Source: Calothrix sp. MO_192.B10 (GTDB lineage Bacteria; Cyanobacteriota; Cyanobacteriia; Cyanobacteriales; Nostocaceae). From it: 48,637 bases of DNA. Shown here in pieces: positions 26,421 through 48,413 of the stretch. Location of the stretch: positions 1 to 48,637 of the forward strand of contig JASJDS010000082.1 in NCBI GenBank assembly GCA_030065055.1, given 5' to 3'. Position 1 is the stretch's first letter. Every line of letters begins with the position of its first letter. Position numbers and translations under genes: made by a program. The notes beneath the pieces were generated by a model, which ran no database searches, was not told the origin of the DNA, and saw nothing but the letters and a program-made list of their open reading frames with translations.

Positions 26421-28877
26421 ATGCTGAAAACAGCGATCGATCAACAAACCCCTGGTAAAGTTTTCGGTGAAGATGCTCTGGTATTGCCTTTTACTCAAGT
26501 AGGAATTGCGGATATTCCTCTAGTGGGTGGAAAAAATGCTTCTTTGGGGGAAATGATTCAGCAACTTATACCCAAAGGGGTAAAAGTACCAGATGGATTT
26601 GCCACTACAGCTTATGCTTATCGTTACTTTATCCAAACAGCAGGATTAGAAGCCAAGTTAAGGGAGATTTTTGCCAATCTGGATGTGGAAGATGTAGATA
26701 ATTTGCGTCAATGCGGCAAACAAGCTCGATATTTAATGCTGCAAACCCCCTTTCCAGAAGAATTGCAACAAGCGATCGCTACCGCCTATGATCAGTTATG
26801 TCAAGAATATGGTGCGAATACCGATGTAGCTGTACGCTCCAGTGCCACAGCAGAAGACTTACCAGATGCCAGCTTTGCCGGACAACAAGAAACCTACCTC
26901 AATGTCCACGGACTATCGGCAGTTCTAGATGCTTGCCACAAGTGCTTTGCATCAATTTTTACTGACAGAGCCATTTCCTACCGACAAATCAAAGGCTTCG
27001 ACCATTTCAATATTGCCCTCTCGGTAGGGGTACAAAAAATGGTACGTTCTGATTTGGCTTGCTCTGGGGTGACGTTCTCCATTGATACCGAAACTGGTTT
27101 TAAAGATGCAGCATTAATCACCGCCGCCTATGGCTTGGGCGAAAATGTGGTTCAGGGATCGGTAAACCCAGATGAATACTTAGTATTTAAACCGACTTTA
27201 GAACAAGGATATCGCCCCATTTTAGCTAAACGGTTGGGTACTAAGGAAATTAAAATGGTTTATGACCAGGGTGGTTGTAAACTGACTAAAAATGTTCCAG
27301 TACCCAAAAAAGAACGCCAGCAATTTGCCCTGAGTGATGATGAAATCCTGCAATTAGGTAAATGGGCAAGTTTAATTGAACAACACTACTCCCAAGTTCG
27401 TGGTGTCCACACACCTATGGATATTGAATGGGCAAAAGATGGGATCACGAATGAATTATTTATTGTCCAAGCCCGTCCAGAAACCGTACAATCACAAAAG
27501 CAACAGAATGTCCTGCGTACCTATCGTTTGCAAGAAAAAGGTGAGGTACTGATCGAAGGACGTAGTGTGGGTGAAATGATTGGACAAGGAAAAGCCAGAG
27601 TGATTCTGGATGTCCAGCAAATTAATCTGTTTCAGCCCGGTGAAGTATTGGTAACAAATCGTACAGACCCAGACTGGGAACCAATCATGAAAAAAGCCAG
27701 TGCGATTGTTACTAACCAGGGGGGAAGAACCTGTCATGCAGCAATCATCGCTCGGGAAATGGGTATTCCTGCCATAGTTGGTTGTGGCAATGCTACCACC
27801 GCTATTAGTAGTGGGGAAGAGGTGACGATTTCCTGTGCAGAGGGGGAAACAGGAAAGGTTTATCAGGGTTTATTATCCTATGAAGTAGAGGATATACCCT
27901 TAGACGAATTACCCCACACCCGCACCAAAATCATGATGAATGTGGGTAATCCAGAAACAGCATTTGGTTATGCGGCGATTCCCAATGATGGGGTGGGATT
28001 GGCTCGGATGGAATTTATTATTGCCAACCATATTAAAGTACACCCCTTAGCATTAGTTCATTTTGACCAGTTAGAAGATGAATTTGTCCAACATCAAATC
28101 CAAGAATTAACCGCTAAATACCCAGATAAAAAGGAATTTTTCATTGATAAACTGGCACAGGGTATGGGAACCATTGCCGCAGCATTTTACCCCAACCCTG
28201 TAATAGTTCGTCTCAGTGATTTCAAGAGTAACGAATATGCCAACCTGCTTGGTGGGCAACAATTTGAGCCAAAAGAAGAAAACCCCATGCTTGGTTGGCG
28301 TGGTGCTTCTCGCTACTACGACCCCCGGTATCAATCAGGTTTCGCTTTGGAATGTCAAGCCATGAAGCGGGTAAGGGATGAAATGGGTTTAACCAACGTG
28401 ATTTTAATGGTGCCATTTTGTCGTACCCCCGAAGAAGGCAAGCGGGTTGTAGCGGAAATGGCAAAAAATGGCTTGGTGAAGGGTGAAAACGGCTTGCAAG
28501 TGTATGTCATGTGTGAGTTACCCAGTAATGTGCAACTTGCAGACGAGTTTAGCCAAGTATTTGATGGTTTTTCCATTGGTTCCAACGATTTAACCCAGTT
28601 GACATTGGGATTAGATCGGGATTCTGAATTAGTCGCCCATTTGTTTGACGAACGTAACAACGCCGTCAAGAGAATGATCGCAAAAGCGATCGCAACTGTA
28701 AAATTACATGGACGTAAAATCGGTATTTGCGGTCAAGCACCAAGCGATTACCCAGAATTTGCCCGTTTCTTAGTTGACCTAGGCATCGACTCCATCAGCC
28801 TCAACCCAGATTCTGTCCTCAAGACACTATTGGAAGTGGCTGCAGCGGAGAAGAGGAGTGAAGGAGTGAAGGAGTGA
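26421..28877 (+). CDS. ppsA: Phosphoenolpyruvate synthase
   Basis: The 818-residue protein has the three PEP synthase domains in order: the ATP-grasp domain (about 15-355, with GGKNASLGEM, VRSSATAEDLPDASFAGQQET and MDIEWA), the swivelling phosphohistidine domain (catalytic H439 in GGRTCHAAIIAREMG) and the PEP/pyruvate TIM barrel (about 480-800, GFSIGSNDLTQLTLGLDRD). It converts pyruvate, ATP and water to PEP, AMP and phosphate, for gluconeogenesis. The family normally ends near LLEVAAAE. Here the last residues (KRSEGVKE) are encoded by GAGTGAAGGAGTGAAGG, the unit that links the downstream hairpin repeats, so the repeats have invaded the 3' end of the gene. AAAGGATAT serves as ribosome binding site. 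Confidence 0.97.
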   Translation: MLKTAIDQQTPGKVFGEDALVLPFTQVGIADIPLVGGKNASLGEMIQQLIPKGVKVPDGFATTAYAYRYFIQTAGLEAKLREIFANLDVEDVDNLRQCGKQARYLMLQTPFPEELQQAIATAYDQLCQEYGANTDVAVRSSATAEDLPDASFAGQQETYLNVHGLSAVLDACHKCFASIFTDRAISYRQIKGFDHFNIALSVGVQKMVRSDLACSGVTFSIDTETGFKDAALITAAYGLGENVVQGSVNPDEYLVFKPTLEQGYRPILAKRLGTKEIKMVYDQGGCKLTKNVPVPKKERQQFALSDDEILQLGKWASLIEQHYSQVRGVHTPMDIEWAKDGITNELFIVQARPETVQSQKQQNVLRTYRLQEKGEVLIEGRSVGEMIGQGKARVILDVQQINLFQPGEVLVTNRTDPDWEPIMKKASAIVTNQGGRTCHAAIIAREMGIPAIVGCGNATTAISSGEEVTISCAEGETGKVYQGLLSYEVEDIPLDELPHTRTKIMMNVGNPETAFGYAAIPNDGVGLARMEFIIANHIKVHPLALVHFDQLEDEFVQHQIQELTAKYPDKKEFFIDKLAQGMGTIAAAFYPNPVIVRLSDFKSNEYANLLGGQQFEPKEENPMLGWRGASRYYDPRYQSGFALECQAMKRVRDEMGLTNVILMVPFCRTPEEGKRVVAEMAKNGLVKGENGLQVYVMCELPSNVQLADEFSQVFDGFSIGSNDLTQLTLGLDRDSELVAHLFDERNNAVKRMIAKAIATVKLHGRKIGICGQAPSDYPEFARFLVDLGIDSISLNPDSVLKTLLEVAAAEKRSEGVKE

Positions 28878-29399: not shown

Positions 29400-29930
29400 A
29401 TGTTTCAAAAGATCCTCGTTGCCATAGACAATTCAGAGATTTCCCAATTAGTGCAGGAAGAAGCTCAATCCCTGGCAAAAAATATGGGTGCAAGGGTGAT
29501 GTTGATATACGTTCAAACTTCCTTTGACGAACGGTATCTTAACCCAGTATTTCTCGAACCAGATAGCCTTTATCCCAGTTTGCATACAGAAGCCGTGCAA
29601 AACTATATGAAACAATGGGAAGAACTCAAACAAGAGAAAATAAACTGGTTGCGATCGCTATCTCAAAAATTTAGTAATCAAGGCATTCACACTGAGTTTA
29701 CCTTGAATTTTGGCGATCCCAGTCGCATGATTTGCGAACTCGCTAAAACTTGGAATGCTGACTTGATTATGTTAGGTCGTCGGGGTCACACTGGATTAAG
29801 CGAAATGTTCTTAGGTAGTGTGAGTAATTATGTATTACATCATGCCCCCTGTTCCGTACTCACCATCCAACCCCCAGAAGTTCGCACTAGTCCCGAATTA
29901 ACCCAGCAAGAAGAATTCGAGGCTGTGTAA
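29400..29930 (+). CDS. Universal stress protein (UspA family)
   Basis: The 176-residue protein begins MFQKILVAIDNSE and contains the ATP-binding signature GRRGHTGLSEMFLGS (G-2x-G-9x-G-S, about residues 142-156), followed by VSNYVLHHAPCSVLTI. It is a single-domain USP, longer than the 140-150 residues usual because of an inserted helical stretch (about 50-85). USPs bind ATP and respond to stress such as starvation or low oxygen. It lies on the same strand as ppsA, across the hairpin array. Confidence 0.95.
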   Translation: MFQKILVAIDNSEISQLVQEEAQSLAKNMGARVMLIYVQTSFDERYLNPVFLEPDSLYPSLHTEAVQNYMKQWEELKQEKINWLRSLSQKFSNQGIHTEFTLNFGDPSRMICELAKTWNADLIMLGRRGHTGLSEMFLGSVSNYVLHHAPCSVLTIQPPEVRTSPELTQQEEFEAV

Positions 29931-30056: not shown

Positions 30057-30524
30057 ATGAACAGAATCATTCATCAGCTCGCCATCAGTGCTAGCGTATT
30101 TGTAATTAGTCTCCTCCCAGCCAATCCAGCACTTGCCCAACCAGGAGGTTGCTGTGGTTATGGGTCTTGTTACGGAGGAAACTACCAACAAAGGATGTAT
30201 AAAACTCAATCCATAGAAGACATTACTGGTCAAGTAATTAGTGTTCATAATATTACTTCACCTAGAAACACTTCTGGCGGCGTACATCTAATAGTTAAAA
30301 CAGCAAAAGAAGACATTGATGTCCATCTTGGACCCGCTTGGTACATCAATAACCAAAATATCAAAATAAATCTGCAAGATAAGATTAGAGTCCGGGGTTG
30401 GAGAATTTCCATTGCCGGAAAACCAGCCATTATTGCAGCTGAAGTGGCAAAAGGCGATCAGGTTATTACCTTGCGGAATCCAGATGGTTCCCCACTGTGG
30501 AGTGGTAGAGAAAGATGGTACTAA
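30057..30524 (+). CDS. Small exported protein, putative OB-fold
   Basis: The 155-residue protein has a signal peptide cleaved near PALAQP (residues 1-28), a short Gly/Cys/Tyr-rich stretch (GGCCGYGSCYGGNY, about 31-44) and a beta-rich domain (about 53-150) with GQVISVHNI, VHLIVKT, DIDVHLGPAWYI and DKIRVRGWRI. The strand pattern recalls small periplasmic OB-fold proteins. A strong GGAGGT ribosome binding site lies 4 bases before the ATG. Function is unknown. The cysteine cluster might bind metal. Confidence 0.75.
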   Translation: MNRIIHQLAISASVFVISLLPANPALAQPGGCCGYGSCYGGNYQQRMYKTQSIEDITGQVISVHNITSPRNTSGGVHLIVKTAKEDIDVHLGPAWYINNQNIKINLQDKIRVRGWRISIAGKPAIIAAEVAKGDQVITLRNPDGSPLWSGRERWY

Positions 30525-31008: not shown

Positions 31009-31632
31009 ATGGAAAGAAAGGCAACCAACCCATTATTACCACTCATGGAAATTCCTGCTGGATACCTCAACATCATGGGCTACATTGATGAATCAGAGGT
31101 AAACGGACCTGGTTGTCGTGCCGTTGTTTGGGTACAAGGTTGTCTGCGGGAATGTCCTAGTTGTTTTAATCCCGATTCTTGGTCATTTGAGATTAACCAA
31201 TTAATTACTGTGGAAGCTTTGGCAGAAAAAATTCTCAGTAATCCCCGCAATACTGGTGTAACATTTTCCGGGGGAGAACCATTTTGGCAAGCACCAGCAT
31301 TGGCTGCTTTGGCACGTAAGCTCAAAGCTGCTGGATTAAATGTGATGTCATTTACAGGCTTTACCCTAGAAAGATTACAATCTGAGTATGCCCCTGCTGG
31401 GGCACAAGAATTAATTGACCAATTAGATATTTTAATCGATGGGGCATTTGTAGAGTCCCTGGCAATTAACGATCCCACCTCTCCTGTATCTTCGAGTAAC
31501 CAGCGAGTACACATATTCAATCCTGCCTTCCAAGATAAAATTACTTGGGCAAGCGATCAAACAGAAATTCATATATTTAAAGATGGTAGCCGTATTGTAA
31601 CTGGCTATCGCGGTTGGATGGAACAACCTTAG
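31009..31632 (+). CDS. NrdG-like radical SAM activating protein
   Basis: The 207-residue protein (start ATG at 31009 with AAGGAAG about 8 bases before) has the radical SAM cluster CLRECPSC (C45, C49, C52, CxxxCxxC), the SAM-binding GGEP motif (88-91) and a short, incomplete barrel. These features fit class III ribonucleotide reductase activases and similar single-cluster activating enzymes. Such enzymes make a glycyl radical on a partner and work only without oxygen. No nrdD or other glycyl-radical enzyme is in the window, so the partner is unknown. An upstream extension of the frame to 30724 runs through repeats and is rejected. It precedes the rogue psbA on the same strand. Confidence 0.87.
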   Translation: MERKATNPLLPLMEIPAGYLNIMGYIDESEVNGPGCRAVVWVQGCLRECPSCFNPDSWSFEINQLITVEALAEKILSNPRNTGVTFSGGEPFWQAPALAALARKLKAAGLNVMSFTGFTLERLQSEYAPAGAQELIDQLDILIDGAFVESLAINDPTSPVSSSNQRVHIFNPAFQDKITWASDQTEIHIFKDGSRIVTGYRGWMEQP

Positions 31633-31821: not shown

Positions 31822-32079
31822 ATCACTACTTCTTCACAAATTCCTCAAATTGTTCACCTATAACTAAAGTGAGAAAATAGGTTCTTGAATCAGCTAAATG
31901 CAGCAAACATAGGGTGCTGTAAGGCTGTTCCTTTGGAACATCGCAGTTCAGTGATTCACTTTTAGATTTTGGATTTAATCTCAACCAAAAAGGTAAGTGA
32001 TATCAATTGTTTTGATTCTCCTCTCCATCTCATTGGCTGCGTGCAAATGATGCTGCATATAGGCTGAGGAGGAAGTTGT

Positions 32080-33156
32080 ATGAATACAGTTATTCTTCGC
32101 CGCAAAAAATTTAACATCTTTGATATCTGGGATCGTTTTTGTACTTGGATTACCAGCACCGAAAATCGCATCTATATAGGCTGGTTTGGCGTGCTAATGA
32201 TTCCTTGTCTACTCGCCGCCACCATTTGTTTTGTACTAGCTTTTATCGCCGCTCCTGGGGTTGATATGGAGGGGATTCGGGAACCAGTTTTAGGTTCTCT
32301 GATGAGTGGTAACAATATAATTACAGCCTCTGTGGTTCCTACTTCTGCTGCCATTGGTTTACATTTTTACCCCATTTGGGCAGCAGGTTCCCTTGATGAA
32401 TGGTTGTATAATGGCGGACCATATCAATTAATTGTGTTCCACTTTTTAATTGGTATTTGGTGCTATTTGGGAAGGCTGTGGGAGTTGAGTTATCGCCTAG
32501 GAATGCGTCCTTGGATTACTGTTGCTTTTTCTGCACCGGTTGCAGCTGCTACAGCAGTTTTGCTAGTTTACCCCATTGGTCAAGGTAGCTTTTCTGTCGG
32601 TTTACCCCTAGGCATTGCAGGCACTTTCCACTTTATGATGGCATTCCAATCCGCTCATAATATCCTCATGCATCCCTTCCATATGTTGGGTGTCGCAGGA
32701 GTGTTTGGTGGGGCGCTCTTGAGTGCTTTACATGGCTCCTTAGTTACATCAACCCTGATTCGACAAACTCAGGCAGATGAATCGCCCAGTTTAGGATATG
32801 AGTTAGGTCAACCTCAAGTTACTTACAAATATCTTGCTGGACACCATAGCTTCTTGGGAAGGTTGCTCATTCCTACCTTTGGTAGTAAAAATCACCGCGC
32901 TTTTCATTTCCTGTTAGTAGCTTTGCCAACTATCGGTATTTGGTTCGCTGCTTTAGGTGTATGTGTTATGGCATTTAACCTCAATGGCTTTAACTTTAAC
33001 CATGCCATCTTAGATAGTCGGGGTACAGTCATTAGTACGGATGCGGAGATGCTCAATCGTGCTAATTTGGGTATACAAGCAATGCACGCTCCCAATACCC
33101 ATCATTTCCCGATTCTTCTGTCGAGTGGCGAACCTGTTCCCGTACCAATGTCTTGA
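32080..33156 (+). CDS. psbA: Rogue photosystem II D1 protein (PsbA paralogue)
   Basis: The 358-residue protein aligns with D1 along its length (five membrane helices) but lacks most Mn4CaO5 ligands. With D1 numbering mapped: D170 is V173, E189 is A192, E333 is A337, D342 is L346 and A344 is S348. H332 (H336) and H337 (H341) remain. Y161 (Y164), H190 (H193), chlorophyll-ligand H198 and iron ligands H215 and H272 are kept. In the QB pocket S264 is G268 and F255 is L259, while H252 is kept. This fits the rogue or sentinel D1 class, which forms PSII unable to oxidise water. ChlF (chlorophyll f synthase) is an alternative, but no far-red cluster genes are near. A strong GAGGAGGAA site precedes the ATG. 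Confidence 0.93.
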
Positions 33157-33900: not shown

Positions 33901-33956
33901 TTACTTTTGCTGTATATGTTCGTATACTAGCATAATAAACATTGAAAGGTCGGTCA

Positions 33957-35315
33957 ATGGCTAAAAAGAAAACTAAAAAAATTAAGAAACAAATGGGTGT
34001 GCAACAGATATTGTTACATCCTGATAAGGAGACTAAAGCAATATTAGATTATCTGTGTGAGCAGTCCGGCAAGTTGTATAACTGTGGAGTTTACTTTGCT
34101 CGTCAGACATTTTTCAAGACAGATAAATTACTGACTGGTAAGTTTGATTTGATATATGAAGCGACTGTGGGTAAAACTACTATTGCTCAATCATTACCAT
34201 CTGTTCCGGCTCAACAAACCTTGTTGTCAGTTGCAGAGGCTTTTAAATCATTTAAAGAGTTGAGAAAAAAATATTTCGCTAAAAACTTGCACTTTAAACC
34301 AAAGCCTCCAAGCTATCTAAAAGGTTCAAAGCTGTTTAAGGTGGCGTACCCGAACTGTGGAGCAGGTAAACCAAGCTTAAACGGTGACAATATCAGGTTC
34401 CCGCTTGGTTTGACTATTAAAAGATGGTTCAAGATTAAGGAGTTTTTTCTCCCTATGCCCTCAAACCTAGATTTCAACAAGGTTAAAGAGTTTACTATTT
34501 TCCCTAAAAATGGAGCATATTACCTTGAGTGTAGCTACCAACTAACATCACACACACCTGATTTAGACTTTGAGCAAGCACTGTCTATCGATTTAGGTAC
34601 AGCGGATAATTTAGCAGCTTGTGTTGATACCTTGGGTAACTCTTTTTTGGTGGATGCTCGCCATATGAAAGCAATGAACCAGTTATGGAACAAAAAAGTT
34701 GCTACCTATAAGGAAGATAAGCCACAAGGTTTCTGGAACTCTTGGCTGGATAGAGTTACTAGAAAACGTAACCATCAACTACGAGACGGCATAAATAAAG
34801 CAGCAAAGCTAATTGTTAACCATTGTTTAAAGCATGGTATCGGCAATCTAGTAATAGGTTGGAACGAAAGCTTCAAAGTTAATGCTGACATGGGTCGGGT
34901 TAACAATCAGAAGTTTGTTCAGATGCCATTAGGCAAGCTTAAAGACCGATTAGAACAGCTTTGTAACCTGCACAGGATTAAGTTCCACCCAACAGAGGAA
35001 GCGTATACATCCAAGGCTAGCTACCTTGATGGTGACTCCCTACCCAAGCACGGAGAAAAGCCGAGTGGGTGGAAAGCTAAGTCCTTCGGACACGCTTCGC
35101 GAACAGGTAACAGGACTAGACGCGGTTTGTATCGCACTCAGAAAGGATACTTAATAAACGCAGACCTTAACGGGAGTGCGAACATTTTAAGAAAAGTAAG
35201 CAGTAGGTTAGGCGTTGACCTAGCCAGACTGAATAGACGTTGCTTGACCAACGTAGCTAGGATTAAGCTTTGGCACGGGTCGAGTAAGACCCCTCTGCAT
35301 TGCCCAAACCTGTAA
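33957..35315 (+). CDS. tnpB: IS605-type TnpB nuclease with an in-frame repeat insertion
   Basis: The ATG at 33957 is preferred to an upstream TTG at 33942 and gives 452 residues. RuvC motifs are complete: D in ALSIDLGTADNLAA, E in LVIGWNESFK and D in LINADLNGSANILRK. The usual TSKCS / zinc-finger segment is present in the cysteine-free form YTSKASYLDGD. TnpB is an RNA-guided DNA nuclease encoded by IS200/IS605 elements. No tnpA transposase is beside it, so it is a solo copy. At 35079-35105 a 27-base sequence (encoding KSFGHASRT) splits the WKA-GNRTRRGLY segment, matching a small cyanobacterial repeat. It keeps the frame. Confidence 0.9.
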   Translation: MAKKKTKKIKKQMGVQQILLHPDKETKAILDYLCEQSGKLYNCGVYFARQTFFKTDKLLTGKFDLIYEATVGKTTIAQSLPSVPAQQTLLSVAEAFKSFKELRKKYFAKNLHFKPKPPSYLKGSKLFKVAYPNCGAGKPSLNGDNIRFPLGLTIKRWFKIKEFFLPMPSNLDFNKVKEFTIFPKNGAYYLECSYQLTSHTPDLDFEQALSIDLGTADNLAACVDTLGNSFLVDARHMKAMNQLWNKKVATYKEDKPQGFWNSWLDRVTRKRNHQLRDGINKAAKLIVNHCLKHGIGNLVIGWNESFKVNADMGRVNNQKFVQMPLGKLKDRLEQLCNLHRIKFHPTEEAYTSKASYLDGDSLPKHGEKPSGWKAKSFGHASRTGNRTRRGLYRTQKGYLINADLNGSANILRKVSSRLGVDLARLNRRCLTNVARIKLWHGSSKTPLHCPNL

Positions 35316-38458: not shown

Positions 38459-39040
38459 TTATGATTGCGGAAGTCTCACACAAGAAGGGGTAGTAGGCGC
38501 AGGAGGGTCAGGAAAAACCGCTAGTGTATTGTACTCTGGACTACCATTACCATAAAGTACTCGGAAAGCATATAACTTTTTTTGACCTTCTTTTTCAGTT
38601 ACCACAGTTAACAAAGTTTTATTAGTGTGAGGAAGTCCAGGAATATTTAATTTTTTGATTCTACGTAGGTGAATCACATTAGCCGCAGAATTATTGCAAT
38701 TTCCTGTATTCCCATTTGATTGACCAAATTGCAAGCACATTGGGCCATCAAAATCCAAAGTTACCTGGGAAGGATCATCCAACCAAACCTTTCTAATAGT
38801 TTCTCCTGCTGGAATAAAACTTAAGTTAGTCCCTTGCTGAAACCAGACTTTGATAGTAGGTATAGCGCCCCCTAAGCCCTGTGCTTGACAAGAGAAAATA
38901 GAACGGAGAACAGCATTATTTGCTAGCGCACGACCAGTAAAAAATAAAATTGTACCTCCCACAGTTAGACCAAGCAAAGATAGTAAATAAGGATTTTTAG
39001 GGATAATCCTAGGAAAAGAAATACGTTTTATCATCACCAA
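38459..39040 (-). CDS. VirB9/TrbG-like conjugation protein (putative)
   Basis: The 193-residue protein has an N-terminal hydrophobic segment (about 16-42). A beta-rich domain follows with FIPAGETIRKVWLDDPSQVT, VIHLRRIKKLNIPGLPHT, NKTLLTVVTEKEG and KKLYAFRVLYG. This order, with PGE-x-V...D..., then NL-x-V-x-T and YxFRL, resembles the N-terminal domain of VirB9/TrbG/TraK proteins, part of the outer-membrane core of type IV secretion systems. It has no C-terminal VirB9 domain. Assignment relies partly on its position after a VirB10-like gene. It is the last clear member of the minus-strand gene set. The start could also be the second Met (residue 3). Confidence 0.6.
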   Translation of the reverse strand: MVMIKRISFPRIIPKNPYLLSLLGLTVGGTILFFTGRALANNAVLRSIFSCQAQGLGGAIPTIKVWFQQGTNLSFIPAGETIRKVWLDDPSQVTLDFDGPMCLQFGQSNGNTGNCNNSAANVIHLRRIKKLNIPGLPHTNKTLLTVVTEKEGQKKLYAFRVLYGNGSPEYNTLAVFPDPPAPTTPSCVRLPQS

Positions 39041-39149
39041 TTAAAATTGGATTGCATCCGTAATTTAGATTGTAAGAAAGGCAAGATTGTCACCAACACA
39101 TCATGCCAGTAACTGGTATCAGGATATATGAAAAAAGTTTATTTCAACT

Positions 39150-39197
39150 CCTAACTATCAACTATCAACTGTCAACTGTCAACTATCAACCATCAAC
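39150..39197. repeat. Heptamer repeat (ACTATCA)n
   Basis: About six tandem units of the CAACTATC/CAACTGTC type fill the gap between the VirB9-like and VirB10-like genes. STRR-type sequence. Confidence 0.85.
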
Positions 39198-39199
39198 CC

Positions 39200-40831
39200 T
39201 TAAAATCGCACTCTTTGATTGACAAATACTTCCACCTCTGTCCCTACTGGTAAAAACCAAATATTAGTGCGCCTATTTCTTCTTCGGGAACTAGTTCTTC
39301 GAGTAGTGCGGCGCCTAACTTGGGGAACTACAGTTCTCACACCTCCTTCAAATATTCCAGCTAACAAATCGCGGTTGCGATCGCTACTGGTAATGGTAGT
39401 ATTATTGGCGGTTGTAGTCACGTTTGATTCTGGACGATTGATAATTTCCGCCGCTTTACCCACTCCCCCTAATACAAATAATCCGGCATCATTCAAGGCG
39501 GTGGAAGAACTACCTTTACGATATTTCTTGGCAATTAAAGGTTTACCATTAACTCCGCGAATTGCTAACTCACTTCGAGAGATACTTCTTTCCCTAACTT
39601 TATTCTTCTCTGGAATCAGAACTCTAGTTACCTTTAGTTTTGTTAATCCTTCTCGAGAAAAGGAATCGACTTTCACTAACAGTTCTGTGTCTTTAGGTAA
39701 AGCAATATCATTATCCTGAGTTTTTAATGGTTCTTTTAACCGCACCACAAAAACATTATTATCCACATTATCTGTATTATTCACAGAGGTTTGACTATTA
39801 CGGCGGCGACTGCGGAACCTGGTTCTAGTGTTAGTGGTTTCTCCAGATATTGCTGTAGCTAATACAGCTTTAGCACTACTGCCGATAACCGTTGACTTGC
39901 CTGTACGTCGGCTAACTGTACTAAAAGTAGACCTTGTTCTATCTCTAGGCTGAATGGCGACGGGTCTTTTAAAGTCAAGATTTCTGCTAGGTGTTGCTCT
40001 AGGTGTTGGTCTAGGTGTAAAACTCGAATTACTCACCCTTGATTGTTGCTCGCCAGATACTTCACCATAACTACCCAATTTTGCCAACCTCGACCATTCT
40101 TGCATGGGATTAGGGGGAGTTGGAGAAGAACTGGGAGGATTGGGTGGAATTGTAACGACGGGTGGTTGGTTATTGAAAGGAAGGGTTTGTGGTGGAGGGG
40201 ATGGAACCGTTGTCCGGGGTTGGGGAACTCTAACCACCCGTTCTACTTCCCGGTAAACTGTCCTGACGGGGGTTGGTGTTTTTACGGTTGCTACCTGTTG
40301 CCTTTTTGCGGATGGCAACTGGGTAACATTGGGGGTACTTGGTTTATTTCTTAATCTTCTCAGTTGTTGCTGTGCGGCTTTGACATCCTTGGCTTGCTCT
40401 GCTAAAGCCAGCTTGGTTTTTAGGGTCTCTACTTCCGTTTCTAGTTGCTGTAGCCGGGGTTTTGCAGTTGGTTGGGGTTTAACTTCTGGTGCTAGGGTCT
40501 GAACTTTCGGTTTTTTAGCACCACCGCTCATTACCTGGGTTAAGAATATCCCGGCAAACATCACCATGATTAAGGTGCCTGTGCCGACTAAAGCTGCTTT
40601 GGCAAAGGGATTAGATGATAATTGTTGTTGAGTCTGAACAGCCTGTGGCTGATCATCGATAGCTGGCTGTGAGTCATTGGACTCTGTTGGTGAATTATCT
40701 GGAGTTTGATATTTCTCTTCCAATCCCACCAATTTTGCCATCCGTAATTCCCAATCCAGAGATTCTGAATTGAGGGAAGGATTACTAGCACCGTTTGTTG
40801 ATGGTTGGGAGGACATAGGAGATTGAGTCAT
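39200..40831 (-). CDS. VirB10/TrbI-like conjugation protein
   Basis: The 543-residue protein fits VirB10: a cytoplasmic N-terminus (about 1-70), a single membrane helix (about 76-97, AALVGTGTLIMVMFAGIFLT), a coiled-coil segment (about 130-160), a long Pro/Arg-rich linker and a C-terminal beta domain (about 350-543). The C-terminal domain has FVVRLKEPLKTQDNDIALPK, GTELLVKVDSF and ends with WFLPVGTEVEVFVNQ, like the PxGTxVxVFV of TrbI proteins. VirB10 spans both membranes and senses energy in T4SS. It is longer in linker than usual. Basic RRRTTRRTSSRRRNRR near the end is unusual. Confidence 0.75.
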   Translation of the reverse strand: MTQSPMSSQPSTNGASNPSLNSESLDWELRMAKLVGLEEKYQTPDNSPTESNDSQPAIDDQPQAVQTQQQLSSNPFAKAALVGTGTLIMVMFAGIFLTQVMSGGAKKPKVQTLAPEVKPQPTAKPRLQQLETEVETLKTKLALAEQAKDVKAAQQQLRRLRNKPSTPNVTQLPSAKRQQVATVKTPTPVRTVYREVERVVRVPQPRTTVPSPPPQTLPFNNQPPVVTIPPNPPSSSPTPPNPMQEWSRLAKLGSYGEVSGEQQSRVSNSSFTPRPTPRATPSRNLDFKRPVAIQPRDRTRSTFSTVSRRTGKSTVIGSSAKAVLATAISGETTNTRTRFRSRRRNSQTSVNNTDNVDNNVFVVRLKEPLKTQDNDIALPKDTELLVKVDSFSREGLTKLKVTRVLIPEKNKVRERSISRSELAIRGVNGKPLIAKKYRKGSSSTALNDAGLFVLGGVGKAAEIINRPESNVTTTANNTTITSSDRNRDLLAGIFEGGVRTVVPQVRRRTTRRTSSRRRNRRTNIWFLPVGTEVEVFVNQRVRF

Positions 40832-41099
40832 ACAATTTTAGATTTTAGATTTTTGATTTTGGATTCTTAGATGTTGGATTAATTCCACAGGTAAATAGCA
40901 ATACGATTTAGTTAAAAAGAATGTAGATTGGGTTGAGCGATAGGGAAACCCAACAAACCTTTGATAATGTTGGGCGCTCACATCTTGCACCACATGATTA
41001 TTGCGAAAATTATTTCGTAGGGTGGGCAATGCCCACCTTACTGTATTGAGGTAAATATGAGATTTATGCCATATATATATAGGAGTTAGTTTTCAGAAT
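40832..41099. other. Gap with palindrome between two T4SS-like genes
   Basis: No gene. It contains AGATTTTAGATTTTTGATTT-type repeats just upstream of the VirB10-like gene and palindrome copy 3 (GGTGGGCAATGCCCACC, 41021-41037). If the cluster is one operon, the transcript carries this hairpin. Confidence 0.6.
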
Positions 41100-41774
41100 T
41101 TATTGAGAACAGTTTTTATCTTCTATCTCACAAACATTATAAATTTCTAGCCTAGCTTCACCCAGTCTGTAGGCAGCTAGATTCCATGAAACTGGGGAAT
41201 TAGGCAGGGAAATTTCTGGTTTTTCTCTCACTCTGACCAAAATCTGCTTGTTGAAAGGGGTGGTTTGACCCAATCTGTCATAATTGGTAAACATTAATCG
41301 ATTAGCGCGGATTTCTACTTTCCATTTACCTTCTCCTATAGGTTGGGGTGGAGAGACTTTTTGGATTACCAGCACGCTCTCTCTACCGCTAAAATTTGCT
41401 GCTCTACTATCATCGGGAATAAATTGTGATTGAAATTTGCGTTTGAATCTGGGTGATAATAATTCTGAGCTGACTTGCCAAACCGTTTGTGGTGGTTGCT
41501 GCTGGGACCAAGTGAACAATAGGGTCATGGTTTCCCCCACAAAGCGACGAATGGTCTGAGGATTGCGTTCTACGGACTTTTGAGGGTCGGCTGTAATTGC
41601 TTTACCATCCAGCAGTTGTACTAAGCTGCGGGGAGTTAGTTGGCGACTCAACTGCTGCAACATGGAACCATGAAACATCAGTATCAATAAGGCGAATACA
41701 TTCAACCCAAAGGTACCTATGGCAAATAGGGGTAAGATATTCTTTTTATTCCTTTCTCGATTAATCAATTGCAT
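41100..41774 (-). CDS. VirB8/TraE-like protein, second copy
   Basis: The 224-residue protein has a short basic N-terminus, one membrane helix (about 14-36, LFAIGTFGLNVFALLILMF) and a periplasmic domain with SLVQLLDGK, RRFVGETMTLLFTWS, WKVEIRANR and PFNKQILVRVREKP. It shares this whole plan with the neighbouring 274-residue protein (LVQL-DG, RQFV-TMMSMFDWS, PFNKDLLVRA), so the two are paralogues. VirB8/TraE proteins are bitopic inner-membrane parts of T4SS with an NTF2-like periplasmic domain, consistent with the size and topology. Family assignment is structural inference. Confidence 0.6.
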   Translation of the reverse strand: MQLINRERNKKNILPLFAIGTFGLNVFALLILMFHGSMLQQLSRQLTPRSLVQLLDGKAITADPQKSVERNPQTIRRFVGETMTLLFTWSQQQPPQTVWQVSSELLSPRFKRKFQSQFIPDDSRAANFSGRESVLVIQKVSPPQPIGEGKWKVEIRANRLMFTNYDRLGQTTPFNKQILVRVREKPEISLPNSPVSWNLAAYRLGEARLEIYNVCEIEDKNCSQ

Positions 41775-41779
41775 CCAAT

Positions 41780-41965
41780 CAGTTATCAGTTATCAGTTAT
41801 CAGTTATCAGTTAGCCTCCTGCTCCCTCCGGGAGAGCTGCGCTAACGGAGGAGCTGCGCTAACAGTTTCCCCATCGATAAATCGAGGGGCAAGGGTTACG
41901 GGAAAAATTTTTTTCCACCTCCACAAATAGAATTTGGGGGCTTGATACCGATTACTGTTTGGTCA
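41780..41965. repeat. Mixed repeats between the two VirB8-like genes
   Basis: Four or five AGTTATC heptamers (41780-41813), a GAGCTGCGCTAACGG-type double palindrome (about 41817-41862) and the second copy of the 35-bp dispersed repeat (41931-41965, first at 30743-30777). Confidence 0.7.
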
Positions 41966-41968
41966 CAG

Positions 41969-42793
41969 TTATCTGGTAAAGCTACCCGATGTTCTTCTAT
42001 TGTTACAACTACTCAATTGATTTGTGGGTAATCCTTCATATTTATCGACCAAGCACAAATCGCGCATTTCGTAAATCTCTAGTTTGTCAGTGCGGACGCT
42101 GTAGATTGCTTTTTGCAGATTTGTAGCTCTTTGTGGGAGGGGATAATCAAAAGTATCTATAGCTCGAACTAGTAAATCTTTATTAAAAGGAACGATGACT
42201 TTTCTGTCGTCACCCCGTTTTTTTTGAATTAAGTCTGCAACCATACTCACCCGCCACTCTCCAGGTGCTGTTTGCTGTGGTATATCGACCCTTTTGATCA
42301 CTAATTTTGCCGATATAGCTTGCTTGACATTACTAGAAAACACTTCTGATGGGGTCATTTCCGCAATTGTGCTTAAAAAACCCTGGCGAAAGTCTTCTGA
42401 TAAAGCAAAGCTAGCCAACCAACTGCTGGTGGCAACCCTTTTACTACTACCATTAGTTGTGCGAATGATTATACCCCCATCTGCTTGGGGTTGGGATACC
42501 TGTTCGATGGTTTGTGGTGGTAGTTTACCAGACCAATCAAACATGGACATCATGGTTTTACTCACAAATTGGCGAATTTTCTCTGGTTCCCTGGTTAAAT
42601 TATCCAATTCCTTAACAAGTTGACCATCAACTAATTGGACAAAGGTAGGAGGTTTACGTGCATTTAATTGGCGAATTGTTAAACCTTGGAAAACTAGTAA
42701 AATTAAAGTCAATAAATGTAACCCAAAAGTAGCGATCGCTAAGGTGGTTAATGTATTGACTTTGCGTTTTTTTTTCTCTAATAAACGTGTCAT
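41969..42793 (-). CDS. VirB8/TraE-like protein, first copy
   Basis: The 274-residue protein has a basic N-terminus (KKKRKVN), one membrane helix (about 18-36, LAIATFGLHLLTLILLVF) and a periplasmic domain with FVQLVDG, RQFVSKTMMSMFDWSG, ISAKLVIKRVDIP and VPFNKDLLVRAIDTFDYPLP. It is a paralogue of the downstream 224-residue protein. The start codon lies 3 bases after the stop of the VirB6-like gene, indicating translational coupling. The C-terminus has cysteines (LCLVDK, LSSCNN) that the other copy partly shares. Confidence 0.6.
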   Translation of the reverse strand: MTRLLEKKKRKVNTLTTLAIATFGLHLLTLILLVFQGLTIRQLNARKPPTFVQLVDGQLVKELDNLTREPEKIRQFVSKTMMSMFDWSGKLPPQTIEQVSQPQADGGIIIRTTNGSSKRVATSSWLASFALSEDFRQGFLSTIAEMTPSEVFSSNVKQAISAKLVIKRVDIPQQTAPGEWRVSMVADLIQKKRGDDRKVIVPFNKDLLVRAIDTFDYPLPQRATNLQKAIYSVRTDKLEIYEMRDLCLVDKYEGLPTNQLSSCNNRRTSGSFTR

Positions 42794-42796
42794 AAA

Positions 42797-43828
42797 TCAA
42801 ATCCTTTCCCTTACCCAGGAGGAGGTATTACTAATCCCATTAAAAACAGCAAATCCCCCCGCAGCAGCTAACATTAAAGATAAAATCGGTGCTAAAATTC
42901 CCAGGAAAATTAAGAACCACATAAAATCTGGGTCTGCGGTAGCATCTTGCGCCGGACCATCTATAATTACCCTGGCAGTTAAGATGACAATTAGGTTAAA
43001 AGATATTTTGGCAATTCCCATCGATAAAAATCCAGTTATCCAAGCAAAAATAGGTTTACCAGCTACGGGAAGCAATGAACCACCCACCGCTAAGGGACCT
43101 AAAGCTGCTACTAACAACATTGTCCCTTCAATCAGATTTTGAAAAGCATATTGTAAGGAAATTAAGAAGTTTTTAATAGTAGTTTGGAAAGTAGAACCTA
43201 ACAAAGCATTAAATGCCGTATCCGATACCACTCCTGGTGTATCTGCAATTTGATTCACCTTAGTTTCTAGTTTAGTAATCCACAAGCGATCGCCATATAA
43301 ATTTCTATATTCCTGCCAGAGAATTTCTGTTTTTTCTGTGGCTTTATCAAAACATTGTCTCCTTAATTCTCCTGTGAGTGATTGACAAGGACGCAAGAAA
43401 GAGCCAGCAATTTCTTCAGCTACACTCATATTTAATGCTTGTTGGTAACTTAAATCCGCATCAGCAATTGTTACCACCTGTTGATTAATCCCATTGAGGA
43501 AATCCCTTACACCCAAGGTAAGGTTAGACAGGGTGGTACCATTACCCACATTTGCCAATAATACCACAACAATAAAGGGCCAAATTAACGATGATAGAGG
43601 GCGAGATAATTCGCTGTATATGGCATCTTTCAGCCATTGCATCATAAAGAATAATAGGGTGCCAACGGCAAAAAATGTTCCCAATCTAGTTAGGGAGCCA
43701 TACAAATTTTCACTAGCATTATTTTGTAATAAATCCAACCATTGTTTATCCCAACTTTCAGTAATACTGCGGGCAGCGATCGCTCCACTGTTAAGAACTT
43801 CATTAATACCAACTTCAGCAAATAACAT
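42797..43828 (-). CDS. VirB6/TrbL-like multi-spanning membrane protein
   Basis: The Met at 43828 (MLFAEVGINEVLNSG) is chosen. A longer frame to 43972 would add residues encoded by repeat sequence (DAKDAKKGF, LLLITYYLI). The 343-residue protein has hydrophobic segments at about residues 50-70, 80-100, 200-225, 232-250, 258-280 and 305-325, with a cytoplasmic or periplasmic stretch containing RPCQSLTGELRRQCFD between. Multi-spanning proteins of this size occupy the VirB6/TrbL place in T4SS operons. Sequence alone does not prove it. Its stop is 3 bases before the VirB8-like start. Confidence 0.6.
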   Translation of the reverse strand: MLFAEVGINEVLNSGAIAARSITESWDKQWLDLLQNNASENLYGSLTRLGTFFAVGTLLFFMMQWLKDAIYSELSRPLSSLIWPFIVVVLLANVGNGTTLSNLTLGVRDFLNGINQQVVTIADADLSYQQALNMSVAEEIAGSFLRPCQSLTGELRRQCFDKATEKTEILWQEYRNLYGDRLWITKLETKVNQIADTPGVVSDTAFNALLGSTFQTTIKNFLISLQYAFQNLIEGTMLLVAALGPLAVGGSLLPVAGKPIFAWITGFLSMGIAKISFNLIVILTARVIIDGPAQDATADPDFMWFLIFLGILAPILSLMLAAAGGFAVFNGISNTSSWVRERI

Positions 43829-44499
43829 TATTAAGTAATAAGTAATAAGTAATAAATTAATTGGCGTTGCTTCCTTTGCGGGATGATTTTCTTCTCTCTT
43901 TCTATCAGAAAATCCTTTCTTTGCGTCCTTTGCGTCTAAAGCCCTACGGGCATGGCTGAGTGCAAAGCACACGCTTCGCGTTAACGTAGTTCCTCTGTAA
44001 GAGGCACGCTAATGTGGTTCATTACTTCATCCCTCTATTGTGCAACGCCAATTAATCTTTTTTATCCACTCCTTCCCTCGTGGGCGGGGAAACCCCGCCC
44101 CTACACCTTCCCTCCTTCTCTCCTTCACTCCTTTTATTCACGCCTTCACTCCTTCCCGATGGGCGGGGAAACCCCGCCCCTACAGCTACCCTCGTGGGCG
44201 CAAGCCGCAGCGCCCCTACTTCTTCACCCCTTCCCTCCTTTACTTCTTCCCTAGGCTGTAGACTTTGTGCCCCCCTCCAGGATAAATATTCATCCCACAT
44301 CTGTGACATGACTTGTTCCTTGTCTCTGGCAAGGAACATGGGGTTGGAGGCAGAGCCTCCCACCACAGGTACCAAGGCAGAGCCTTGGCACGAGAGTGAC
44401 ACCAAATAAGTAATGTTGATAGTTGATAGTTGATAGTTGTTAGTTGACTTCCTCATCCCACCAACCATCACTCCTTCCCTCCTTCACTCCTCCCCTCCT
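43829..44499. repeat. Repeat-filled gap inside the T4SS-like cluster
   Basis: About 670 bases without a gene: AAGTAATAAGTAATAAG (about 43832-43855); GGGCATGG and CACGCTTCGCG fragments (43945-44010); three palindromes of the GGGCGGGGAAACCCCGCCCC type (44082-44101, 44161-44180, 44196-44215) in CCTTCACTCC tracts; the inverted composite repeat copy B (44301-44400); and GATAGTT heptamers (about 44415-44445). Frames in it are repeat artefacts. Confidence 0.75.
44301..44400. repeat. Composite palindromic repeat, copy B (inverted)
   Basis: Inverted, slightly shorter copy of 14701-14820 with the same three hairpin motifs (CAAGGAAC, GAGGCAGAGCCTCC, CCAAGGCAGAGCCTTGG). Confidence 0.75.
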
Positions 44500-45285
44500 T
44501 CACTCCTCCCCTCTCCCTAACAAATCCGTCTGGGAGGTATTTCTCAATAACCTGGCAGCTTCTGCGGAAGAATCTACCCTTCTAGCTCGATTTACTTGCT
44601 CCATTTGTTGAGAAATACTGGCTAAGTTTAAGTTAGAGTACTGCAACGATTGTCTCATCTCTATGGTTTGACCTAACAATTCCCCCACAAATTGTGCTTG
44701 TTCCCCCTGGATTCTCACAGATTGTAGTTGAAATCTAGATTGAGTGCGACTGAGTAATGAGGTAAGTTGGTTCAAAGGATTATTACCAGGGACAATACTA
44801 GGAATTTCATCTAAAAAATTGCGATAAGCTTGATTGGCATCTCTTGTTGAGTCTGCAATTGTTCTAATGGCATTTTCAGTACTTCTTAACTTACTCCTCA
44901 ACCTAATTTGGGCATTTGGTTCTAGAAATGCTGCCACTCTACCTCTAGTAATAAAACGATAGACTTCATTATTAATATCTTGGGCATATATTAATGAATT
45001 ATTTTCAAATTCATCAGTTAATGAATTGACGATAATCTCATTATTAATTGCCTGATTAACACTCAAAGGATTAGGTATATTCAGTACTCCATCATCAGTC
45101 TCAATCGCTATATCTGCTTCTGATTCAACGGATTGCAATGTTTGCCCCAGATTATCTTGCAAATAGTTTTGTAAATCCTCAGCATATAGGCGAAAATCAG
45201 ACCACAATCGTCCTAATTGAGCGGTTGCCGGCAAACTAAATAAAAGTGCGATCGCTACTATAAAAACACCAGCCCTTACCATCAT
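44500..45285 (-). CDS. VirB5/TrbJ-like exported helical protein
   Basis: The 261-residue protein has a signal peptide (residues 1-22, ending PATAQ), then a largely helical body: NYLQDNLGQTLQSVESEAD, RSKLRSTENAIRTIADSTRD, NQAYRNFLDEI and a C-terminal Q/R/S-rich coiled region (FQLQSVRIQGEQAQFVGELLGQ, NLNLASISQQMEQVNRARR). A helical exported protein after the signal peptide and before the VirB6-like gene matches VirB5/TrbJ proteins, which sit at the pilus tip or stabilise mating. Family similarity is weak and position weighs heavily. Confidence 0.6.
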   Translation of the reverse strand: MMVRAGVFIVAIALLFSLPATAQLGRLWSDFRLYAEDLQNYLQDNLGQTLQSVESEADIAIETDDGVLNIPNPLSVNQAINNEIIVNSLTDEFENNSLIYAQDINNEVYRFITRGRVAAFLEPNAQIRLRSKLRSTENAIRTIADSTRDANQAYRNFLDEIPSIVPGNNPLNQLTSLLSRTQSRFQLQSVRIQGEQAQFVGELLGQTIEMRQSLQYSNLNLASISQQMEQVNRARRVDSSAEAARLLRNTSQTDLLGRGEE

Positions 45286-45340
45286 GTCCCCCTTTAATAA
45301 TTAATAATTATGAATTATGAATTACGAATTACGAATTACC

Positions 45341-48088
45341 TCAGCTATCTCTAATTGCTGCTACTAATTGCCGCGCAAATGTAGAAATAGCTTCATATTT
45401 ATCCTGGTATTGCTGCATCATTTTTTGTCTGCCTGCTTGCTCCTGGGGATTATTGGCAACCACTGCCAGTTGTTCGTATCCTGGGTAATAACGACAAAAC
45501 GTATAAAGGCCGCTATCATCTAATAACCATTGGCTGTAAATACCTTCTTTTTTGGGGAAAAAGCTTTCTGTGGCGTTGCGGGCAATAATTTCTCGCGGAT
45601 ACTTTAAAATATCAACAAAGCTATCCACCGCAACTGGCTGAATCCTCCCAATTAATCTAGTGGTCAGGTTTTGCAGAATCTTCGATGCAGCTTTAGATTT
45701 AGCAATAGTATCTGGGTCTTGGGCTGATAAAATCACCCTAATACCAGCTTTGGCTCCATTGGCGCAAATTCTCCCCACTAAGTCCGAAATTTGGTCAAAT
45801 TCAAATAAAATTGGGGCTTCATCAATAAAGAATATGGAAGCGGGACTACTCAAGGCACGACGCAAAGCAGCAGAATAGGCACTGAGGGACAATACCGCCG
45901 CATCTTCGCTGTCAGCTAGGTTTCTCAAGGCAAATACCAATAGAGGCGCGTCGGTGCGGAAGCTGGAGGGGGAAGAGATGGCTTTACCCACCCGACTGGA
46001 TAGCCAGAACCGTAAACGCAGGTGAATGTGGCTGAGTGCATCTTCTACCCTGCCGCCGATGGTATCTAATTGCAGGTGTTCGGGAGCGCAAAAGGTGAGA
46101 AAATCTTGCAAGGTGGGTGTTTTATCCCAGGCAGGACTACCAAACCCTCCTACCATTGCCTCATGATATCGCTGTTGGATGCCCATATCAGCAAAGAAGG
46201 CTGTGATTGCTAAATTGAGGACAGAACGCACGGTTTGGGCTAATAACTGATTCTCGGTGGACGAGCCTAAAACCATGGTCATTAACGCTGATTCCAAAAA
46301 TCCGATATAATCTTGTTGTCGATCGCGTTGTTCTTCTGGAGATAAAGATCGCAAGTCTGGTTGTTCAAACAGATTATTGGATTGTTTGGAAATATCAAAA
46401 TATGCCCCGTTCCTGCCCATAAACTCCGTATAGTCGGTAAAGGTAGACGTACCGTCGGGTTTAGGGAAATCTAAGGCGACTACGGGTATATTATGAGCCA
46501 AAGCCTGGGTTAAAATCCCCGATACCAAAACCGATTTTCCGGCGCGGGTAGTAGCAAATAAAGCTAAGTTTTTATGTTGATTAAATAAGTCTAAATGTAT
46601 GGGGGTTCCTCCCTCCTCAGCAACTAATTCAAACCCTTGGCGATCGCCTTTTTTGGTCATTACTAAAGGCATTAACCCCGGCACTTCATTGGTTAAATAA
46701 AGTTGGCGGCGATTGAATGGTTTAGCTAACAAACCTTCCCACACAATTGGCAGGGTTTGTAACCAAATCTTCCAAGCATATTCTGTCTCCCTAATTACCT
46801 GTGCCGGACGTTGAAAACAGTTTTCAATATACTTAGTTGCTTCCTCTAATTTCTCTAAATTAGAACGATGGACTAGAATAGCAATGCTCGTATAAATGGG
46901 AACTGCACCTTCATAAATTTGTTCCTGTGCTGCTACGGACTTCCTTAACTTTAATTGAGCATTGACATCAATGGTTTTACTCTTTTCCTGAGCCATCAAT
47001 GCCGACATATTCGACTGTTTCAGCACCCGTTGCAAAGTAGTTTTGACAATAGCTGGATTCGCCGCACTCAACTGACAAAATATCTCCGTATCTACCACCG
47101 TTTCCCTTGCCAGCAATTCCCATAAATAGCGCAACTGTGATGATTTATTCTGCCATCCTCCCGGCTTCTCCAGAAACGTCATCACCCCCACATAACTATT
47201 ATTCACATTCACCCATCGGCGATCCGCACAAGGAACCTGAGACTCCATTAATAAGGTGGTACTATGCAAATTATCTATCAGTAATTTAGTGCTAGCTAAA
47301 TCTGAATAAACCTGCTCATGTAAACCATTTTCATCTAAAGTAATTAACTGAGGAATATCTATAGGTTGGCTATCATTAAATCTTTGCCAAACAGAACCCC
47401 ATAAATCCATCGCAGTCAACGCCCTCACATTCAATCCCATCTTGTTAGAGAGCAACTGTTCCCAACGGCGAAAACCTTCTTTATAAGCATTAATAACTAA
47501 AGTTTCTATCCGCTCACTTTCTGTATCTGCAACCTCACCCTTAAACTTTGACCACCACAACTCACCCTTGGCTAATAATCTTTCTATCCAATCATCTGTA
47601 TTTGTATTACTAGGCTCAATGGTATAAGTAACATATATTCTGAGAAATTTAGGCTTACGAATGCCAGTACGAGTTAATTCTTGGATTCTTGCCCGTTCTG
47701 CCATTAACAAATATTTTATATCTGCTGAAGGTGCCTTTTTGATTAATTCAGCTAACTCCTGCTGCCGTTCTCTTTGGTCACTAAAAGAACCTAAATGAAA
47801 AGTGATTCTTTCCCCTTCAGGAATATCCTTTAAACCAGCTTCAATACTATTACAAACAGTATCTATTTGTTCCGTTCTTAAAGTCGTGTGTATCCCTTCA
47901 CACTCAAAACCAAAAACAAAACAGAACCGATCCTTTTGGGTTCCCTTAGTTAAAACATATCCACCCACATCCCTACCATTCAAAGAGACGCGCAACATTG
48001 TAGCTAAATGTAGAGCATCTTCAAACGGTGTTAACCTAGTTTCACTTCCGGCGACGCTGACGCTTTTTTTTCCGATTTTCGGCTTCAT
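45341..48088 (-). CDS. VirB4/TraC-like conjugation ATPase
   Basis: This 915-residue ATPase has a Walker A motif ATTRAGKSVLVSG (K518) and Walker B SIFFIDEAP (D756, E757), followed by RVILSAQDPDT, a sensor-like motif. The N-terminal half carries the VirB4-type domain (YFPV-like FETR/ELVAEEGGTPIHLDLF at about 490-505 leading into the ATPase). VirB4/TraC/TrbE ATPases power T4SS assembly and transport and are the most conserved T4SS component. The start overlaps the upstream 123-residue gene by 47 bases, which indicates translational coupling. It is large and intact. Confidence 0.85.
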   Translation of the reverse strand: MKPKIGKKSVSVAGSETRLTPFEDALHLATMLRVSLNGRDVGGYVLTKGTQKDRFCFVFGFECEGIHTTLRTEQIDTVCNSIEAGLKDIPEGERITFHLGSFSDQRERQQELAELIKKAPSADIKYLLMAERARIQELTRTGIRKPKFLRIYVTYTIEPSNTNTDDWIERLLAKGELWWSKFKGEVADTESERIETLVINAYKEGFRRWEQLLSNKMGLNVRALTAMDLWGSVWQRFNDSQPIDIPQLITLDENGLHEQVYSDLASTKLLIDNLHSTTLLMESQVPCADRRWVNVNNSYVGVMTFLEKPGGWQNKSSQLRYLWELLARETVVDTEIFCQLSAANPAIVKTTLQRVLKQSNMSALMAQEKSKTIDVNAQLKLRKSVAAQEQIYEGAVPIYTSIAILVHRSNLEKLEEATKYIENCFQRPAQVIRETEYAWKIWLQTLPIVWEGLLAKPFNRRQLYLTNEVPGLMPLVMTKKGDRQGFELVAEEGGTPIHLDLFNQHKNLALFATTRAGKSVLVSGILTQALAHNIPVVALDFPKPDGTSTFTDYTEFMGRNGAYFDISKQSNNLFEQPDLRSLSPEEQRDRQQDYIGFLESALMTMVLGSSTENQLLAQTVRSVLNLAITAFFADMGIQQRYHEAMVGGFGSPAWDKTPTLQDFLTFCAPEHLQLDTIGGRVEDALSHIHLRLRFWLSSRVGKAISSPSSFRTDAPLLVFALRNLADSEDAAVLSLSAYSAALRRALSSPASIFFIDEAPILFEFDQISDLVGRICANGAKAGIRVILSAQDPDTIAKSKAASKILQNLTTRLIGRIQPVAVDSFVDILKYPREIIARNATESFFPKKEGIYSQWLLDDSGLYTFCRYYPGYEQLAVVANNPQEQAGRQKMMQQYQDKYEAISTFARQLVAAIRDS

Positions 48089-48413
48089 GGTTCACTTCCA
48101 GAAAGCTATGATAACGAGCAATACCCCTTGTCCAGTGAGGCACCCCAATAAACTTACTTAAAAACCGCCAACTCCTACCACCACTCAATATCCACCAAGT
48201 CCCCATTCCCCAACCAGTAATTAATCCCGTCCACAACCACCGTTGAAAATCATCGGCGAACAAACCCCCAAAAATCCCATTGATGATAAAGTAAGCGGCT
48301 AAGGCAATCACAGTCCAAGGAAAGATTTGATCCGCAGGAATTGGGCCCAAGGAAGGCTGGGTTCCTAATATTTGATTGACGGGTCGAAATTCTTGGTCTT
48401 TCTCTTGAGCCAT
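48042..48413 (-). CDS. VirB3-like small membrane protein
   Basis: The 123-residue protein has two close hydrophobic segments (about 31-52, FPWTVIALAAYFIINGIFG, and about 58-75, WLWTGLITGWGMGTWWIL) and a basic tail (RKKKKRQRRRK-like end). In T4SS operons a small two-helix protein, VirB3, directly precedes VirB4, and here the genes overlap by 47 bases. Family identity rests on size, topology and this position. Confidence 0.6.
   Translation of the reverse strand: MAQEKDQEFRPVNQILGTQPSLGPIPADQIFPWTVIALAAYFIINGIFGGLFADDFQRWLWTGLITGWGMGTWWILSGGRSWRFLSKFIGVPHWTRGIARYHSFLEVNHEAENRKKKRQRRRK

Follow-up and report, generated by a model that had tools for sequence, protein, structure and literature searches.

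The 48,637-nucleotide stretch of Calothrix sp. MO_192.B10 DNA analysed here (contig JASJDS010000082.1 of assembly GCA_030065055.1; hereafter the window) carries a rogue/sentinel-type D1 gene (rD1) that is real and under selection. As the preliminary description had proposed, the encoded protein is predicted to be unable to hold a Mn4CaO5 cluster, five of the six D1-borne ligands being altered while the cofactor residues are kept. By its residues and tree placement it belongs to the published rogue/sentinel (group 2) type and is largely ordinary for that class, apart from a donor site that is the most stripped in our sample and an NrdG-like neighbour that recurs beside rD1. The gene and its surroundings are listed in Table 1.

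Table 1. Features of the window discussed in the text (D1 numbering for residues)
Feature	Position	Strand	Basis
Phosphoenolpyruvate (PEP) synthase	26421..28877	+	profile match
Universal stress protein (Usp)	29400..29930	+	profile match
155-aa protein without Pfam match	30057..30524	+	Pfam search
NrdG-like radical-SAM gene, CX3CX2C motif, 207 aa, orphan	31009..31632	+	profile matches
GAGGAGG, probable ribosome-binding site	32066..32072	+	read from the sequence before the rD1 ATG
Rogue/sentinel-type psbA (rD1), 358 aa	32080..33156	+	ORF, alignment, tree; TIGR01151 match
Codon GTC, V at position 170 (residue 173)	32596..32598	+	alignment, sequence
Codon GCT, A at position 189	32653..32655	+	alignment, sequence
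Codon GGT, G at position 264	32881..32883	+	alignment, sequence
Codon GCT, A at position 333	33088..33090	+	alignment, sequence
Codons CTT CTG TCG, L-L-S at positions 342-344 in place of the D-L-A end	33115..33123	+	alignment, sequence
TnpB-type gene, downstream of rD1	33942..35315	+	profile match

The rD1 reading frame opens with ATG and contains no internal stop. Alignment of its product to the two standard D1s of the same genome (L001 and L002; identical at 239 and 234 of 360 reference positions, respectively) confirmed the substitutions D170V, E189A, E333A, D342L and A344S, as well as S264G and F255L, all of which had been read from the letters of the window. Y161, H190, H118, H198, H215, H272, H332 and H337 were kept, in agreement with the earlier statement that TyrZ and the chlorophyll and iron histidines are retained. 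The same alignment revealed further changes at D61E, N87A, E/Q130L, N181H, F211L, A251G, F265S and L271F. Several Mn4CaO5 ligands are thus gone from an otherwise complete D1, and the LDLA motif for C-terminal processing of D1 (PMC9640542) is lost, the D-L-A processing site of standard D1 having become L342-L343-S344. The protein scored 574.3 bits against the psbA profile TIGR01151, below the curated cut-off of 596.05, and lacks both the complete ligand set and the above-threshold score of standard or microaerobic D1s (groups 3/4). Mis-registration of the ligand positions was ruled out, since a phmmer alignment to the solved D1 chain 7yq2_A and an HMM built from 33 standard-type rows each returned the same residue pairing as the alignment to the standard D1s. 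Gaps in the alignment were confined to the vicinity of the N-terminus and to one residue beside H252, with none between position 253 and the C-terminal ligands.

To place the protein, we aligned 91 D1, D2 and ChlF proteins drawn from the retrieved loci, after removing rows shorter than 300 aa (pieces from L008, L106, L107, L109 and L110), duplicate copies of the same genes and identical sequences. The tree, from which L078 (a run of N) and L103 (standard-type with a low profile score) were also omitted, comprised 89 rows (48 rogue-type, 33 standard, four ChlF and four D2). The window D1 fell in supported sets of 2, 11 and 20 rows, every one of them rogue-type; the 'rogue' labels were assigned from the loss of ligands, following the definition in the literature (PMC4773611), the alignment containing no published rD1 sequence. 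The branch uniting all 48 rogue-type rows was without support. The protein therefore groups with other rogue-type D1s, as had been anticipated, rather than among standard D1s with sequencing errors, the outcome named beforehand as refuting that view. It also lay outside the four ChlF rows, which rules out a ChlF (group 1) identity. With group 2 D1s, exemplified by Cyanothece 51142 PsbA4, it shares the missing Mn4CaO5 ligands, the altered C-terminus and the conserved TyrZ-H190 pair, but it differs in lacking D/E170 and in having no carboxylate or amide at position 189. ChlF (super-rogue) D1s likewise are D1 paralogues that lack a usable Mn site and keep TyrZ-H190, and three of the four ChlF rows have A170; they carry Q or R where the window D1 keeps H252, and S or T where it has lost S264. 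Standard D1 (group 4) and D1' (group 3) share its fold and cofactor histidines, with some 65-67% identity to the standard D1s of its own genome, yet have the full ligand set of which the window D1 lacks five of six. Two further types of protein were seen in the alignment: the rogue-type D1s of L020, L021, L025, L026 and L027 stop at position 343 without a C-terminal extension, and the D1s of two Vulcanococcus MAGs (L096, L097), placed within the standard rows on a long branch, combine a full ligand set with T264, M255 and a short C-terminal tail.

Much of what distinguishes the window D1 from standard D1 is common to the class. A87, Y161, H190, H198, N298 and H337 each occurred in 48/48 rogue-type rows; position 333 was A in 26, S in 17 and E in five, and D342 was found in none (one gap). 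On the quinone side, position 264 was A in 25 rows, G in 17 and S in six, L255 was present in 43/48, and every row (48/48) had one residue more than the standard rows next to H252, in the D-E loop. S264 being lost from 42 rows, the S264G/F255L pair, which the preliminary description had singled out as noteworthy, is not a rare combination but close to the rule, so that the altered QB pocket characterises the class as a whole. QB is hydrogen-bonded by S264 and F265, and its protonation involves H252 (PMC12096807, PMC10535343), on which grounds slow QB chemistry is a fair expectation; the S264/F265 region was considered structurally well conserved across D1 groups in a structural survey (PMC12096807). 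These clade-wide changes mean that the acceptor side of rogue D1s is remodelled too.

The reading that best explains these observations overall, and which we hold with considerable confidence, is that the window D1 acts, as a group 2 D1, as a non-oxygen-evolving placeholder in PSII. The draft genome (7.76 Mb in 330 contigs, 96% complete) yielded four Photo_RC matches, namely two standard D1s, the window rD1 and one D2-type gene (L004). The latter, the single psbD-type gene found, we take to encode D2, and a CP43-like reading frame that lies downstream of and overlaps it, and keeps GGETMRFWDFRG, presumably encodes CP43. The window D1 would probably be built into PSII with this ordinary D2 and CP43. 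Because the TyrZ-H190 pair and the cofactor histidines are retained, charge separation to P680+/TyrZ and TyrZ oxidation should proceed. Replacement of E/Q130 by L removes a hydrogen bond to pheophytin. Since positions 170, 189, 333 and 342 all lack a carboxylate and the A344 used in C-terminal processing is missing, the Mn4CaO5 cluster is not expected to assemble nor oxygen to be evolved, and a donor side devoid of metal ligands could not store oxidising equivalents. As S264G, F265S, F255L, L271F and the extra residue by H252 remodel the QB side, quinol formation would probably be slow and the charges would mostly recombine. The most likely use of such a centre may be to keep a fraction of PSII silent in the dark or when oxygen is low; a dark or anaerobic role has been hypothesised for sentinel D1 in the literature. 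As reported in PMC9640542, Synechocystis relying on Cyanothece PsbA4 as its sole D1 was incapable of photosynthesis, and deletion of psbA4 in Cyanothece 51142 led to slightly faster growth without nitrate, modest photochemical effects and faster recombination at a single time point in the dark, the authors concluding that the main dark changes were independent of PsbA4. So mild a phenotype makes a strong physiological role less likely, and judging by this deletion the role of rogue D1 would be subtle. In PMC11070190, sentinel D1 appears in the reference list only.

A PSII containing the window D1 might instead serve as a photo-enzyme that oxidises a small molecule or pigment via P680+/TyrZ, as has been proposed for ChlF D1 in chlorophyll f synthesis. 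Consistent with this are the invariance of Y161, H190 and H198 in the rogue-type rows, the purifying selection documented below and the enzymatic function suggested for PsbA4 complexes in the same paper (PMC9640542). Nevertheless, there is no known substrate or partner, the window D1 stands apart from the four ChlF rows, and no ChlF gene was present among the four Photo_RC matches of this draft genome; we consider this explanation unlikely.

Where the window D1 departs from its class is at positions 170 and 189. Position 170 was E in 31 rogue-type rows, D in 11, Q in three, and S, A and V in one each, so that D/E170 was retained in 42/48; according to a 2016 review (PMC4773611), group 2 D1 carries E170 or D170, and the V, A, S and Q in our sample differ from that description. 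Nonpolar residues at both 170 and 189 were found in only two of the 48 rows, the window and its sister locus L055 (MAG Calothrix sp. MO_167.B12), which are also the only two without a carboxylate at 170, 189, 333 and 342. When 217 genomes belonging to this family were searched, 51 gave matches at E up to 1e-172; among the three genomes of the genus, those of the window and its sister had such a match and the third (G203) did not. Residues were tabulated in 49 of the 51 matches besides the window, leaving out G318 and a second match in G197. In this family-wide set, position 170 was D in 47, E in one and A in one, and position 189 was D in 36, N in 12 and A in one. D/E170 was paired with D/N189 in 48/49 loci, the exception being an A/A row (L160) from the same genome as L055; the 48-row and 49-locus samples overlap and are not additive. 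D170 exerts the strongest effect on Mn affinity at the first Mn site (PMC4853684). In the mutants described in PMC9304363, D170A abolished oxygen evolution and short side chains at E189 left none or a trivial amount, while D170V alone retained partial oxygen evolution in Synechocystis. V170 is therefore not decisive by itself; it is the set of changes that counts, the sister having A170. That 48 of 49 loci keep D/E170 and D/N189 despite their lost C-terminal ligands suggests that the inner site probably does something in most rD1s.

The same conservation, pointing to a first-metal site that matters, together with the retention of H332 and H337, could be taken to mean that a partial metal site made up of these histidines and the CP43 ligands survives and allows light-driven oxidation of Mn(II) or another metal by the complex. 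In this lineage V170, A189 and A333 have abolished precisely that site, and C-terminal processing probably does not occur, which leaves this alternative highly improbable for the window D1. The Cyanothece deletion having revealed little, the contrast with a genus in which the inner site is lost and the gene is still selected makes testable part of the question of why many cyanobacteria retain a D1 unfit for water splitting.

Evidence that the gene is maintained came from comparison with L055, whose D1 is 97% identical and carries A170, A189, A333, L342 and S344. The two genes differ at 49 codons, 12 of them with an altered residue, yielding dN 0.017 and dS 0.165 by NG86 and dN 0.018 and dS 0.146 by YN00. 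Given a dN/dS of ~0.1, the gene is kept under purifying selection and is not decaying; this and the matching changes in the sister genome led us to set aside sequencing error or a pseudogene. Although the assembly is a draft in 330 contigs and two other rD1 genes are split, a decaying or mis-assembled psbA copy has next to no probability in view of the full-length frame, the changes repeated in the sister genome and the dN/dS ratio. The split genes, in L008 (G090) and L109 (Pseudanabaena sp. SR411), are broken into two frames and possibly decaying.

The preliminary description had also held that the genomic setting deserved attention, and this was upheld for one gene. The PEP synthase, Usp, 155-aa protein and NrdG-like genes all lie upstream of rD1 on the same strand, the NrdG-like gene ending 447 bp before it. 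A conserved PEP synthase-Usp-NrdG-rD1 operon was rejected, since among 64 loci scanned the PEP synthase and 155-aa genes accompanied rD1 in the window and its sister only. The NrdG-like gene, on the other hand, recurs beside rD1 in several lineages: it was found within 5 kb of rD1 in at least eight of 49 loci (the window, L055, L036, L039, L042, L049, L050 and L069), a lower bound because at least two pairs of loci are the same contigs (L072/L038 and L076/L044) and several have short flanks. An NrdG-like gene also lies within 5 kb of the rogue-type D1 of L126; these arrangements span several families and differ in orientation. TIGR02491 matched in 47 of the 49 rD1 genomes, some weakly and none over the curated cut-off. 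Linkage was tested in a subset of 23 matched genomes, 19 of which had a match under 1e-20: an NrdG-like match lay within 5 kb of rD1 in 7/19 genomes versus 2/47 standard-D1 hits (four of the 47 being fragments), and both linked standard-D1 hits sit in clusters that also contain rD1. About 0.05 rD1 pairs would be expected by chance; the P values (2e-13; 3e-7 with four families counted once; Fisher 0.0016) are all overstated because the genomes are related. A dedicated rD1-linked NrdG subfamily was rejected, the nine linked rows not forming one clade (six label changes, as low in 9/500 shuffles), though they were somewhat more clustered than chance. Linkage thus arose or was lost more than once.

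The window's NrdG-like protein scored 105.5 bits against TIGR02491, below the cut-off of 126.1, and neither an NRDD nor a Gly_radical match was found in its own draft genome (96% complete). As the gene is an orphan, it cannot safely be called an 'anaerobic ribonucleotide reductase activator'. Across 14 genomes, NRDD gave no match in 13 and a weak one below cut-off in the other, and a Gly_radical protein was present in six. In literature searches pairing psbA with nrdG, microaerobic conditions, ribonucleotide reductase or Usp, no title or abstract opening pointed to an rD1-nrdG link, and psbA0 paired with microaerobic returned no paper. Taken jointly, these patterns would accommodate, as a speculative and quite doubtful reading, most rD1s being metal-handling reaction centres with a selected first-metal site (D/E170 and a carboxylate or amide at 189), this genus being a natural null mutant, and rD1 and the orphan NrdG-like radical-SAM enzyme forming one anoxia module.

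Downstream of rD1, the TnpB-type gene had no homologue at the equivalent place in the sister locus L055. A motif common to the upstream regions of rD1 genes was rejected: seven consensus patterns showed no excess in these regions of 49 loci, and among 7-9-mers upstream of 39 loci only AT-rich 9-mers slightly exceeded shuffles (seven loci versus at most five). Other recurrent rD1 neighbours were an SQR-like flavoprotein, an ArsR-type regulator, rhodaneses, a PetC-like Rieske protein, Hsp20, an adenosine-specific kinase and a FeMo-Co-type domain; the proximity of sqr to group 2/3 psbA has been published (PMC5061849). At L048, L079, L080, L081 and L083, the PetC-like Rieske gene (~178 aa) lies on the same strand as the rogue-type D1 and starts ~0.64-0.66 kb upstream of it, while a gene for a FeMo-Co-type domain protein is found downstream. 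Elsewhere in the window's genome, locus L113 (G000:C45) contains a 165-aa nifH-like frame matching the second half of the profile only, and an adjoining 266-aa frame that resembles the first part of what is presumably nifD; excision elements or breaks in the assembly may have interrupted these frames. Finally, a series of genes on the minus strand occupies positions 38459-48413 of the window; one of them, at 39200-40831, is TrbI-like (36.2 bits against a cut-off of 35), and the series is perhaps what remains of a conjugation system.
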